This document shows positions 44,301 to 49,850 of a stretch of DNA of 64,000 nucleotides, one piece after another; positions within the stretch are counted from its first letter, which is position 1, and the number at the start of each line of letters is the position of its first letter. Both the position numbers and the translations under genes were made by a program. The notes beneath the pieces are model-generated. The model was given only the letters and a program-made list of their open reading frames with translations. It was not told where the DNA came from and did no database searches. Origin of the DNA: Gemmatimonadales bacterium (GTDB taxonomy: Bacteria > Gemmatimonadota > Gemmatimonadetes > Longimicrobiales > Gaopeijiaceae). Where the stretch lies: assembly GCA_007692605.1 (NCBI GenBank), contig REBS01000121.1, forward strand, positions 20,050 to 84,049. Reading direction: 5' to 3'.

Positions 44301-46430
44301 TCAGGCCGGGAAGCTGCCGTCCGGATTCAGTCCCCAGTGACGGCGCACCCGCTCCAGCACGGCCCGGAAGCGTGCATCCTCACAGAAGTCCCCGAGCATG
44401 TCCCGGTAGTGGAAGTGCATGGCGAGGGTGGGCCAGTAGGCCCATCGCTCCACCCGCTCCAGCGCCGCGAATGCACGCTCCCGCTCTCCGAGTGTGGCGT
44501 GCACCATTCCCACCCCGAAGGTGTCGCCGGCCTCGGCGAGGCGGCCGAAAAGGGAGCGGGCCTCGGGTTTCGAATCCGACGTGGCGTGAATCATCGCGAG
44601 CGCGAGGAGTGGCCCGGAGCCGGCCCAGGGCACGAGCAGCCCCTCGAGGAGCTTCCTGGCCTCGTCAGGCTCTCCGAGGGCCAGCTGGGCGTGCGCCTCG
44701 TAGAAGGCTGCCGACGTTTCGTCGGGCTGAAGCCTGTGGGCCCGGCGCGCCTCCCGCAGCGCGGTCTCGGGGTCGCCGGTGACCAGACGGGTCGCCGCCA
44801 GGTTCCCCACGACTTCGGGCGCGAGGGGATTCAGCTGGACCGCTCGCAGAGAGCACTCCAGGGCGGCCTCTCCCCGGCCGAGAAGCTGATACGTCCAGCT
44901 CATCCAGTTGTGCGCGTCGGCATGGCTGGGCTCAAGCTCCACCGCGCGAGCATATCCGTGGATCGCCGGTGGCCCCTCGTGACGGGCCTCGTGCATCAGG
45001 GCACGCGAGGCGTGCGCCGCCGCGAGTTCGGGGTCCAGCGCCAGCGCTCGCTCGACCGCGGACGTGGCCTCCGGAAAGGTCTCGTCAGCCCCCGCGTATC
45101 CGTATTCGTAGCGAAGGGTGAGCGCATCTGCGAGTCCAACCCACGCCAGGGCGTAGTCCGGATCCTCCGCGATCGCGCGACGGAAGTGACGCACGGCTCG
45201 CCGCATCCCATCGTCCGTCCGCTTATCGAGGCGCAGCCGTCCCTCCTGCTGATGCCGGTAGGCCTCGAGGCTGCCGGTCGGAGCCCCTCGCGTCATCCGC
45301 GCCCTCTCATGAGGGGTGAGTTCGGCTCGAAGCCGCTGCGCGATCGTCTCTGCCAGCTCGCTCTGGATCTCGAAGAGGTTTTCCGTGGTCAACTCCCGAT
45401 CGAAGGTGTCCGCCCACCGATGCCCGTCGCTTCGTGCGTCGATCACCTGGATGTTCAACCGAACGCGATCCCCCACCTGCTGCACGGCTCCCTCGACGAT
45501 GGTCCCCACCCCAAGGGCCCCGGCGATCTCGGGGAGGGGCACGCTGGTTCCGCGGTACCGGAGCACCGAGGTCCGTGACGTCACGCTCAGAGCCGTCACA
45601 CTCGAGAGCCGGGTCAGAAGATCGTGATGAAGCCCTTCGGCGAGGGTGGAGGGCTGGTCGACCCCGAGACTCTCGAAAGGAAGGACGGCGATCGAGAGTC
45701 GATCACCTCCCGGGCCCGACGCCTCCCCCTGAAACTCCCGGGTGAGCGCTCGCACCCGGGCGCTGGGCTCCGCCTCGAACTCCGCCTCGAAGGCCTCGAG
45801 GTGCTCCTGGCCGACCCGGAGGGCCTCCGCGCGGTTTCCTGCGGCCGCCAGCGCATTCATGAGCCGGATCGTGACCCGGGCGTCATGAGGGTCCTCGCGG
45901 GCCCTCTCTCGCCACCACCGAACGGCGAGCATCGCCTCCTTGCGCTCTTCGGCCCCCATGGCGAGGGCCTCGAGGGCCTCCCGGTAGCCGCGGCGCAGTC
46001 GATCCCGCTCCCGCTCCGCCCATTGCTCGAATTCCGGCGAATCCCGCAGCCAGAACCCGTCCAGAAACGGCCCCGCGTAGAGTGCGACCGCAGCCTCCGA
46101 CTCCCCCGCCTCGAGAGCCACGCGGAACTGCCCCACGTCGCTGCGGATCCGCCGAGCGTTCAACCGAAGGCCCCCGCCGACGGAGAGGAGAACGTCGCCG
46201 CCCAACGCCTTGCGCAGACGATGGACCCCGGTGTTCAGACGGTTTCGAGCCACTCTCTCCGCGGACCCCGGCCAGAGGAAGCCGGTGAGTTTTCCCCGGC
46301 TGAGCGTCAGGTCGGGAGCACAGCTCAGGAGCGACAGGAGCGCAAGGGAGTGTCGATGGCTCGCCGGCCCCGAAAGCGTACCGGCTTTGTCGTGCACCGT
46401 CGCGCCGCCCAGGAGCTTCAGTTCGAACAT
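44301..46430 (-). CDS. SARP/BTAD-type transcriptional regulator with TolB/FlgO-like domain and TPRs
   Basis: MFELKLLGGATVHDKAG...RHSLALLSLLSCAPDLTLSRGKLTGFLWPGSAERVARNRLNTGVHRLRKALGGD; SIAVLPFESLGVDQPSTLAEGLHHDLLTRLSSV...LGVGTIVEGAVQQVGDRVRLNIQVIDA; C-terminal TPRs. Confidence 0.85.
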   Translation of the reverse strand: MFELKLLGGATVHDKAGTLSGPASHRHSLALLSLLSCAPDLTLSRGKLTGFLWPGSAERVARNRLNTGVHRLRKALGGDVLLSVGGGLRLNARRIRSDVGQFRVALEAGESEAAVALYAGPFLDGFWLRDSPEFEQWAERERDRLRRGYREALEALAMGAEERKEAMLAVRWWRERAREDPHDARVTIRLMNALAAAGNRAEALRVGQEHLEAFEAEFEAEPSARVRALTREFQGEASGPGGDRLSIAVLPFESLGVDQPSTLAEGLHHDLLTRLSSVTALSVTSRTSVLRYRGTSVPLPEIAGALGVGTIVEGAVQQVGDRVRLNIQVIDARSDGHRWADTFDRELTTENLFEIQSELAETIAQRLRAELTPHERARMTRGAPTGSLEAYRHQQEGRLRLDKRTDDGMRRAVRHFRRAIAEDPDYALAWVGLADALTLRYEYGYAGADETFPEATSAVERALALDPELAAAHASRALMHEARHEGPPAIHGYARAVELEPSHADAHNWMSWTYQLLGRGEAALECSLRAVQLNPLAPEVVGNLAATRLVTGDPETALREARRAHRLQPDETSAAFYEAHAQLALGEPDEARKLLEGLLVPWAGSGPLLALAMIHATSDSKPEARSLFGRLAEAGDTFGVGMVHATLGERERAFAALERVERWAYWPTLAMHFHYRDMLGDFCEDARFRAVLERVRRHWGLNPDGSFPA

Positions 46431-46820
46431 CGCACCTCGCTCGACCGCAGGGTGACCGAGGGCGATCGGAACATGCCCCCGTCTCGTGCTCTTCATCCAA
46501 GGTAAGTCGATTCCTGCACGCAGCGCACGGTGGGGGGGACTCAACGCACCAGGGTTCGGGGGTGGGACATCCAGCTTCGCGACGTCATGGCCGAGCATGC
46601 CTCCGCGGAGTGTACGCGACCTTCCGAGCCACGACGATGCCTGGAACCGGAAGTCCACACGGATGGGGTCTTCGCGGGACGGTGTCATCGGAACGGGTTG
46701 TATATGAGCCGGAATCCACAAGCGTTCCTCGCCAAAATCGACGGTTGTGGAGTTCGCGGTCTATACGACGCCCTGGAACGCCAGCGTCCACGAACGAGCC
46801 GTCCAGTGGGGAGAAACGGC

Positions 46821-46900
46821 TCCCTCCCGCCCGCGACGGTTCCTTCCCGCCCGCGACGGTTCCCTCCCGCCCGCGACGGTTCCTTCCCGCCCGCGAAGTG
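46821..46900. repeat. 20-bp tandem repeat, 4 copies, alternating in a 40-bp higher-order unit; G-rich on the minus strand
   Basis: TCC[C/T]TCCCGCCCGCGACGGT at 46821, 46841, 46861, 46881 with C,T,C,T at position 4; the last copy diverges at its end. Confidence 0.95.
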
Positions 46901-47037
46901 AGGGCCGCTCGCAGCCGCTCGCCCCCAACCCGCGAACGACCGCACGCACCCCCGCCCGCCAATCGCTCTCGTCCCACACCGAGCGGCCCGGCCTCGAGGT
47001 GGAGTGCGTCCAGGCTTGGGTCACCCATGCCGGACAC

Positions 47038-47072
47038 AAAAAAAGCCGGCACCCTCGAAAGGATGCCGACTT
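47038..47072 (-). terminator. Rho-independent terminator on the minus strand
   Basis: Minus strand GTCGGCATCC-TTTCGA-GGGTGCCGGC-TTTTTTT; 10-bp stem with two G-U pairs that exist only in the minus-strand RNA. Confidence 0.8.
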
Positions 47073-47234
47073 CCGGAACCACGTGGCAGGGGTGTTATTG
47101 AAGCCCGGGATAAACGAGTGGTGACCTCCCCCCAGCGTTCGAAGTCCTTCGAAAAGGCGTGACGGCGGCTGCGAGAGTCAGTCCCGGCTTCTTTTGTGTT
47201 GGCTCAATAATGATGCCCTGCCAACGCGTCCGGA
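47038..47234 (-). ncRNA. Candidate structured non-coding RNA, ~197 nt, rod-like (6S-RNA-like)
   Basis: Promoter TTGCGT-N17-TATATT, nested helices TCCGGA/TCCGGA, GGCAGGG/CCCTGCC, AAGCCGGGA/TCCCGGGCTT, TGACTCTC/GGGAGGTCA, CAGC/GCTG, then the terminator; no supported ORF. Confidence 0.6.
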
Positions 47235-47239
47235 CATCC

Positions 47240-47268
47240 AATATAAGTACCCTCCCCTCGGCACGCAA
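47240..47268 (-). promoter_or_regulatory. Sigma70-like promoter for the 47038-47234 RNA
   Basis: Minus strand TTGCGT (47268-47263), 17-nt spacer, TATATT (47245-47240). Confidence 0.6.
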
Positions 47269-47318
47269 AGAGCCGGGGGGGCCACAGCCTCTCGCACCCG
47301 GAGGGTCCGCTCCCCACC

Positions 47319-48884
47319 TTACCCGCCGGCGTACATCGGGAAGGTCACCGCGATCGCCCAGGCAAAGGCCATGGAGTTTCCCAGCCCCGCGACCAGTGGA
47401 GAACCGGTACTCCGGAACGCCCAGCGGCTGAACAGGCCGTGTACCACGAAGAAGATCAGGACCACCGGGAAGATGATGATCAGGAAGAAGAGGGCCTGGA
47501 AGTCCAGTGCCACCGCGAGGGCCAGCGAGAGAAGGAAGAGAACCTTGGTGAAGGCGTAGGCACCTCGCCGCGGATCCGTGCCGCGGGTCAGCCACTCGTC
47601 CGCCAGGAAGTAGGGGAGGACCCCCACCAGCACGGCGACCATCAGCGGAATGCGTTCGGCCACGGGGAAAAACGAGGTGAAGAAGCGGTCCAGGGGCCAG
47701 GCCATCAGCACGAGGAAGAACGCCACCATCCCCCCCGCCCCCAGCGCCAGCCGGAACGCCCCCGGCCCCCGGACCCCGGCCAGCTCCAGCACCCGCCCCA
47801 TGCGGGGCCGTCCCCCGGTCCACCAGAGCAGCGCGGCGGTGAAGAGCCCCATGGCGAGAAAGTGCACCCCCAGGTAGTCGCCCACCACGACCGGAAGGAA
47901 TCCGGTGGGAAGCGGACGCAGGAGGAAGGGCGTGACCAGCGCCGGGAGCCCGGCGACCAGGAGCAGGCGCTTCCACGTCGCATCGGCACCTCCGGGAGTG
48001 GGGGCCACCCGGGGGAGCAGGGTGGCCAGTGGACGCGCCAGCAGGAAGACGCAGACCATGAGCAGCGCGATCCACAGCCCGCGACCATGCGCTCGATTCG
48101 CGATCGGATCCACGCCCTCCCACTCGAAGACGCCGTCCAGCCAGAGCCGCGTCTCGTCGAGCGTGGTGGCGCTGTAGAGTACCCCGACATGCTCCACCCG
48201 GGGGGAGACCACCAGTCGCCGGGCACTGCCGTCGGAGAGGTCGCCATACGTGGTGAAGGACGCCACCGACTCCGAGTCCCCGCCGGTCCTCATGGCCACG
48301 ACCCTGCGGCCCTCGGCCTCGAGTCGACCCTCCAGCGCCCCCACGATGACCAGGAGATTCCGGGGGGTGGACGCGTCGATGGTGGGAGCGAAGAGGGACA
48401 CGCCCACCGTGGCCCTCACCCGGGGGTCCTCCTGGGCGTATCGCACCAGGATGTTCGTAGCCATCGAATGTCCCACCAGCGCCAGCCCTCCCTCCACCCC
48501 CGGAAGCGAGAGCGCCATCTCGGCCACCTCGGCCGTCTGCTCGATCAGGAGGGCCGACGTCCCGTCCTGCTCGCCCAGATCCCCCCGCATGGGCAGGGGG
48601 TGCCGCCCGTGCCCCAGGAAATCGTAGGTCACCACCACGTATCCGCTTCCCGCGAGCGCCAGGGCGAAGGGCTCCATGAGGCGTCGGGACCCCGCGAAGC
48701 CATGGGCCACCAGGATCACCGGGGCGGGTTCGTCAAGCCCTCCGCGATACACCGTGACCGGGGTCTCGCCCACGTGCAGGGATTCCCGCACGATCCCCCG
48801 CTCATCCGCCCGGAGTTGCCAGAGGGACAGGGCGAGGACGCCGATCAAGGCGATCAGCAGCGGGATGCGACGGGTGGAGGGCAT
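47319..48884 (-). CDS. Alpha/beta hydrolase with a C-terminal multi-TM region
   Basis: PVILVAHGFAGSRRLMEPFALALAGSGYVVVTYDFLGHGRHP, LVGHSMATNILV; several hydrophobic segments in the C-terminal half. Confidence 0.8.
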   Translation of the reverse strand: MPSTRRIPLLIALIGVLALSLWQLRADERGIVRESLHVGETPVTVYRGGLDEPAPVILVAHGFAGSRRLMEPFALALAGSGYVVVTYDFLGHGRHPLPMRGDLGEQDGTSALLIEQTAEVAEMALSLPGVEGGLALVGHSMATNILVRYAQEDPRVRATVGVSLFAPTIDASTPRNLLVIVGALEGRLEAEGRRVVAMRTGGDSESVASFTTYGDLSDGSARRLVVSPRVEHVGVLYSATTLDETRLWLDGVFEWEGVDPIANRAHGRGLWIALLMVCVFLLARPLATLLPRVAPTPGGADATWKRLLLVAGLPALVTPFLLRPLPTGFLPVVVGDYLGVHFLAMGLFTAALLWWTGGRPRMGRVLELAGVRGPGAFRLALGAGGMVAFFLVLMAWPLDRFFTSFFPVAERIPLMVAVLVGVLPYFLADEWLTRGTDPRRGAYAFTKVLFLLSLALAVALDFQALFFLIIIFPVVLIFFVVHGLFSRWAFRSTGSPLVAGLGNSMAFAWAIAVTFPMYAGG

Positions 48885-48923: not shown

Positions 48924-49850
48924 TCAGGCGCCCCCCCGATACCCCCGCAGCCGCGCCAGATTCTTCCGGTCGAGGGTCACCATGTCGTCGCCCTTGGGCG
49001 TCTCGAGCACCTTCGGAATCTCCATGAACCGCTCGTCGGTCATGATCCGCCGGAAGGGCGCCTCGCCGAGCGACCCCTCGCCGATGTGCTCGTGCCGATC
49101 CTTGTTCGAGCCGAAGGGGTGCTTCGAGTCGTTCAGGTGGAAGAGTCCGAGCCGCTCGAGCCCGAGGAGGTCGTCGAAGGCCGCCCACACCCCGTCGTAG
49201 TCCCCGACCAGGTCGTAGCCCGCCGAGTAGGCATGGCAGGTGTCGAAGCAGATCCCCACCCGACTCCGCTGGGGTTCGGGAATCCCCTCGAGAATCCGGG
49301 CCAGAGACTCGAAGCTCCCCCCGACCGACGTGCCCGAGCCAGCGGTGATTTCGAGGAGGACTCTCGTCGGCCCCGATACCTCTTCGAGGGCTCGGGCGAC
49401 CCCCTCGGCGTTCCGTGCGATCCCCGAATCGGCGTCTCCGTCGGTGGCATTCCCCGGATGCGTGACTAGAAAATCGAGCTCCAGGGCCACGCAGCGCTCC
49501 AGCTCCTTTCGAAACGAGTCGAAGGAGCGCTCCCACAGCTCGGGCTTCGGCGACGAGAGGTTGATCAGGTACGAGTCGTGCGAGCCCGCCACCCGGATCC
49601 CATGCTCCTTCCACGCCGCCCGATACGCCGAGCGCTTCACCTCATCGATCTCGGGCTCGGCCCATCGGTTCGGCTGCTTGGTGAACAGCTGCAGGTTCAG
49701 CGACTCGATCGCACGGGCTCGCTCCGGCGCCATCTGCACCCCGCCGGCGACCGAGACGTGTGCACCCAGTTCGTCGGCCACACCCGCGAACTCTCCTCCC
49801 TCGGACGATGCACCGGCGCCGCCGCCCTGGAACTCGATCCCCTCGCTCAT
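48924..49850 (-). CDS. nfo: Endonuclease IV (AP endonuclease)
   Basis: LGAHVSVAGGVQMAPERA, VAGSHDSYLINLSSP, VGICFDTCHAYSAGYDL, LFHLNDSKHPFGSNKDRHEHIGEG. Confidence 0.95.
   Translation of the reverse strand: MSEGIEFQGGGAGASSEGGEFAGVADELGAHVSVAGGVQMAPERARAIESLNLQLFTKQPNRWAEPEIDEVKRSAYRAAWKEHGIRVAGSHDSYLINLSSPKPELWERSFDSFRKELERCVALELDFLVTHPGNATDGDADSGIARNAEGVARALEEVSGPTRVLLEITAGSGTSVGGSFESLARILEGIPEPQRSRVGICFDTCHAYSAGYDLVGDYDGVWAAFDDLLGLERLGLFHLNDSKHPFGSNKDRHEHIGEGSLGEAPFRRIMTDERFMEIPKVLETPKGDDMVTLDRKNLARLRGYRGGA

Follow-up and report, generated by a model that had tools for sequence, protein, structure and literature searches.

6S RNA is widespread among bacteria, typically abundant in stationary phase, and binds the active site of RNA polymerase with the housekeeping sigma factor. 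It mimics an open promoter, blocks the housekeeping holoenzyme and is released via the synthesis of a pRNA (PMC8876501). Verified pRNAs are recognizable by a GG at positions 4/5 and by an A immediately upstream of their start site (PMC8414754). The 6S-1 RNA of Bacillus subtilis is proposed to form a "central bubble collapse helix" when it is released; this helix has tandem G-U pairs, and stabilizing mutants were needed to show its role (PMC8876501). The 6S family is already known, and what is new here is its presence and form across the Gemmatimonadota and a strong alternative helix. A literature search found no paper that pairs 6S RNA with Gemmatimonadetes, Gemmatimonadota or Gemmatimonas, and an earlier listing in the survey of Wehner et al. 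(2014) is possible. The window analyzed here, a stretch of 64 kb, belongs to a Gemmatimonadota bacterium, and its minus strand at 47235..47038 contains with high probability a single 6S RNA (ssrS) gene, whose rod would occupy the polymerase until pRNA synthesis drives its release. The gene and its predicted fold comprise the following features:

47263..47268, minus strand: -35 element TTGCGT, read from the letters; relatives carry CTTTACG/TTGGACG-type sequence at an equal distance
47240..47245, minus strand: -10 element TATATT, 17-nt spacer from the -35 element; 22 of 28 aligned relatives retain exactly TATATT
47038..47235, minus strand: predicted 6S RNA gene with a transcript of ~198 nt; 5' end placed from the position of the -10 element
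47038..47071, minus strand: intrinsic terminator, hairpin 47071-47044 followed by T7 at 47044-47038
47216..47234, minus strand: closing stem P1, 5' strand (TCCGGA...GGCAGGG), from the minimum-energy fold and covariation
47072..47091, minus strand: closing stem P1, 3' strand (CCCTGCC...TCCGGA), from fold and covariation
47201..47210, minus strand: helix P2, 5' strand UUAUUGAGCC, doubling as putative pRNA template; part of the minimum-energy fold, with a mean pair probability of 0.78
47095..47106, minus strand: helix P2, 3' strand GGGCUUCAAUAA, from fold and covariation
47111..47181, minus strand: apical arm with short internal loops and a terminal hairpin, from fold and covariation

The promoter put forward in the original prediction (TTGCGT-N17-TATATT) was confirmed on the minus strand (47268-47240) and is, judged by its letters, of the sigma-70 type. 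The proposed terminator was also recovered, with its two G-U pairs and T7 and with a stem of 12 bp in the fold; a terminator hairpin and a T-rich tail are present in most relatives. The predicted fold (-86.3 kcal/mol) is more stable than that of shuffled sequences (-69.8 ± 4.7 kcal/mol, z = -3.55, 0 of 200 shuffles as stable) and has the organization of a 6S RNA, a rod of ~160–200 nt with closing stem, P2, central bubble and apical arm. All previously proposed helices that were checked occur in the sequence, including those of P1 on the minus strand (TCCGGA at 47234-47229 and 47077-47072, GGCAGGG at 47222-47216 and CCCTGCC at 47091-47085). The pairing of AAGCCGGGA (47190-47182) with TCCCGGGCTT (47110-47101) is likewise present in the sequence but lies outside the minimum-energy fold. 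Its competitor, TTATTGAGCC/GGGCTTCAATAA, is favored in the free RNA and was absent from the earlier helix list.

By BLASTN, 113 of 196 related genomes contain a match to the RNA. The alignment of 28 relatives shows conservation of the -10 box, the bubble and the rod but not of the flanks. A covariance model of 159 positions (R1), built only from the 47235..47038 locus and its near relatives (28), found the locus in 231 of 249 sampled Gemmatimonadota genomes, as a rule at one place per genome. One genome of the same order (G125) contains two matches (C163:60458-60618 with 55.6 bits and C8:4479-4642 with 52.2 bits), which may be a pair of 6S paralogues like those of B. subtilis or the product of a mixed assembly. 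Two relatives (L016 and L020) carry an additional extension of ~14 nt in the apical arm. Across 73 distinct sequences, pairing in the rod reaches 94%, and 32 of its 42 pairs show double-sided changes. The covariation score is 0.490 compared with 0.221 for shuffled alignments (0 of 500 shuffles), in an alignment that was fitted to the model and therefore leans towards the model's helices. Sliding the helix partners abolishes the signal. All twelve consensus pairs of P1 show double-sided changes (97.2% of cells paired). P2, which is absent from the model, scores 0.161 versus 0.057 (0 of 500 shuffles); 93.8% of its cells are paired, and double changes occupy 36 cells versus 11 in shuffled alignments. 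The call of an RNA gene is upheld by a fold better than shuffles, by conservation and by covariation; relatives that do not preserve the helices were looked for and none was found, the helices being kept with compensatory changes. That the locus is a chance palindrome, a degenerate repeat or a short coding sequence is the least probable explanation, close to negligible: mechanical open reading frames do cross the region, but the RNA is conserved with compensatory changes throughout the phylum, its insertions and deletions do not come in threes and it occurs as a rule once per genome, and the single R1 places together with the covariation already refute this explanation. Matches to the core pattern that carry names are Gemmatimonadota records, with the exception of two chance matches outside the phylum in which the remainder of the RNA is absent (L069, "Deltaproteobacteria", and L097, Comamonas).

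The assignment to 6S RNA was tested against Rfam. At the gathering threshold no family matched within the 64-kb window. The 6S family (RF00013) had no match in the whole genome and was not among the matches in a search of the locus up to E = 10, so that the comparison with RF00013 suggested in the original prediction gave no match at 47235..47038. The Rfam score threshold is an operational test, distinct from the biological definition of 6S RNA. The matches obtained at the locus at E = 10 (BTH_s1, 22.9 bits with a cut-off of 74, C4, RybB and KDPG-aldolase) all lie far below their cut-offs, and three of the four fall on the terminator hairpin or the GC-rich flank. Across the phylum, RF00013 gave 28 matches with E values of at most 1, of which one exceeds the cut-off (L031, 56.6 bits versus 46.4). 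R1, which was built without any of these loci, recovers 27 of them at the identical position and strand; the remaining match (L057, E = 0.7) is noise, since the R1 locus of that genome sits elsewhere. One locus (L033) links both models (51.4 bits with R1 and 36.3 bits, below the cut-off, with RF00013), and UGAGCCGACAC is put at the equivalent position by the two. This agreement indicates common descent with known 6S RNAs. R1 gave 4.3 bits against E. coli ssrS, no direct link, and had no match in Comamonas, and hence falls short of the canonical proteobacterial 6S RNAs; with RF00013 silent at the window's locus, the homology link is transitive. A rod-shaped small RNA unrelated to 6S, acting in trans or binding a protein, would agree with the lack of any Rfam family at threshold and with weak best matches that are other small RNAs; the agreement between two models of independent origin at 27 of 28 loci and the synteny with zapA in relatives make it highly improbable, and the agreement of the models in practice refutes it. 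As judged from sequence comparison, the 6S RNA of the Gemmatimonadota is a phylum-wide branch whose divergence hides it from the Rfam 6S model in nearly all of the genomes sampled.

The gene neighborhood agrees with this assignment. In E. coli, zapA precedes ssrS, and the order in two basal relatives (L032 and L034) is pheT - zapB-like - zapA - 6S - rny; zapA also stands beside the RNA in L031. In the window's clade, zapA gives way to nfo and fumC, both upstream and on the strand of the RNA, with nfo 44–219 nt from the 6S RNA in 23 loci and farther in one. Within the window, a gene for a 521-aa alpha/beta hydrolase (47319-48884) separates nfo (48924-49850) from the 6S RNA; the window's locus is alone in this among the relatives examined, the others having nfo directly upstream. 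Downstream lies a gene for a BTAD and TPR regulator-like protein (44301-46721), whose position next to the 6S RNA is not conserved in the relatives examined, and the stretch between the terminator and this gene contains about four tandem copies of a G+C-rich unit of ~21 nt (cgcgggcgggaRggaaccgt, 46815-46896).

The site of pRNA synthesis was predicted by alignment:

47198..47211, minus strand: predicted pRNA template, with the start opposite C47198 (RNA nt 38) aligned with E. coli U44

The equivalent start in B. subtilis is nt 40. The predicted pRNA, 5'-GUUGGCUCAAUAAU, begins GUUGGCUC, and the E. coli pRNA is 5'-AUCGGCUCAGGGG; GUUGGCUCA of the former and AUCGGCUCA of the latter have GGCUCA in common. 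In more distant relatives with GAGCCGAU, the predicted pRNA AUCGGCUCA would be identical to nucleotides 1–9 of the E. coli pRNA. The template lies beside P2, the predicted product has its GG at 4/5, where 6S RNAs are expected to have it at 4/5 or 5/6, and A47197 adjoins C47198 upstream of the start. The template GAGCC(A/G)A(C/U) is among the most strongly conserved segments of this RNA and agrees with E. coli, as would be expected if it is still transcribed. Together with the R1/RF00013 overlap and the zapA synteny, this template supports the earlier guess of a 6S RNA. These observations also bear on a conserved 6S descendant that, like Ms1 of the Actinobacteria, associates with sigma-free core RNA polymerase and does not template a pRNA. 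Ms1 shows that 6S-like rods can switch partner (PMC9130861), and the sequence here has drifted beyond the reach of RF00013; on the other hand, Ms1 is ~300 nt long with extra 5' and 3' hairpins, binds the core enzyme and has a different synteny (PMC9130861), whereas the RNA between promoter and terminator here measures ~198 nt, and the template is among its best-kept parts. An Ms1-like function is accordingly very unlikely. From the sequence we infer a 6S RNA that is transcribed, binds RNA polymerase and directs pRNA synthesis.

A second pairing of the central region involves the following strands:

47183..47191, minus strand: distal 5' central bubble GAAGCCGGG, 5' strand of the alternative "collapse" helix, from pairing predictions and conservation
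47100..47109, minus strand: CCCGGGCUUC, 3' strand of the alternative helix, common to P2, from pairing predictions and conservation

The strand GGGCUUC can have either UUAUUGAGCC (in P2) or GAAGCCGGG as its partner. The previously listed helix AAGCCGGGA/UCCCGGGCUU is therefore mutually exclusive with the 6S P2 and is not the predicted ground state; it corresponds to the collapse helix proposed for B. subtilis 6S-1. The free window RNA is predicted to form P2 with a probability of 0.78 and the collapse helix with 0.16, values that change to 0.00 and 0.88 when 12 template nucleotides are blocked; pRNA-like blocking of 6–14 template nucleotides gives 0.85–0.89 for the collapse helix. The P2 state (-86.3 kcal/mol) and the collapse state (-84.5 kcal/mol) differ by 1.8 kcal/mol, and as isolated duplexes the collapse helix (9 pairs, mostly G-C) reaches -13.2 kcal/mol compared with -9.2 kcal/mol for P2. 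The switch prediction is not specific, since the energies are nearly equal and blocking several other stretches likewise tips the balance. Over 57 relatives, the free RNA has mean values of 0.35 for P2 (slightly lowered by one G-opposite-G pair in the P2 string) and 0.33 for the collapse helix, and with the template blocked the collapse helix is favored in 55 of the 57. A further 21 relatives, mostly more distant, are without the GAAGCC motif, which confines the strong collapse helix mainly to the window's clade; there the helix is long and nearly invariant, so that covariation says little for it. The same blocking procedure applied to E. coli 6S RNA reproduces its rearrangement into the 9-bp 3' hairpin described in PMC8876501.

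The following mechanism may be proposed. The rod of ~198 nt (P1, P2, central bubble and apical arm) would imitate an open promoter and occupy RNA polymerase bound to the housekeeping sigma factor. Once nucleotides are available again, the polymerase would use the RNA as template from the start opposite C47198, and synthesis of the pRNA would unwind P2. The freed GGGCUUC would be captured by GAAGCCGGG in the 5' bubble, and once this long collapse helix has formed the RNA would let go of the polymerase. The release step has about an even chance of being right. The shared GGGCUUC strand and the near-equal energies could allow very short pRNAs or binding alone to flip the RNA, and we tentatively suggest, at somewhat below even probability, that 6S RNA in the window's clade is a two-state switch that frees the polymerase in this way. 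If so, evolution would have produced a natural counterpart of the B. subtilis mutants with a stabilized collapse helix. The conserved alternative helix offers natural sequences for testing how 6S RNA releases RNA polymerase.

Gemmatimonadota are abundant in soil and sediment. RF00013 reaches its cut-off in 1 of 249 genomes of the phylum and R1 finds the locus in 231, so that standard annotation makes the phylum seem to be without a global transcription regulator that it has actually retained; R1 fills this gap in 6S annotation. The RNA resembles the 6S/SsrS RNAs of RF00013 (E. coli ssrS and B. subtilis 6S-1) in its length of ~200 nt, its rod with a central bubble, its single copy per genome, a P2 helix (uGAgCC/GGuUCa) beside the pRNA start and a predicted pRNA with GG at 4/5, and basal relatives share the zapA neighbor of E. 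coli ssrS. It differs from them in a sequence too distant for RF00013 to match anywhere in the genome, in an A-U-rich P2 (UUAUUGA), in the very long and nearly invariant alternative helix GAAGCCGGG/CCCGGGCUUC and, in the window's clade, in having nfo and fumC instead of zapA as neighbors. It is like Ms1 in being a 6S-like rod, weakly conserved and elusive in standard searches, with by analogy a probable function related to RNA polymerase. The collapse helices of B. subtilis 6S-1 and Aquifex aeolicus 6S RNA likewise join the 3' strand of P2 to the distal 5' bubble once the pRNA opens P2 (PMC8876501); unlike that of B. subtilis, the helix described here has nine pairs, mostly G-C, and is almost fully conserved in the near clade.
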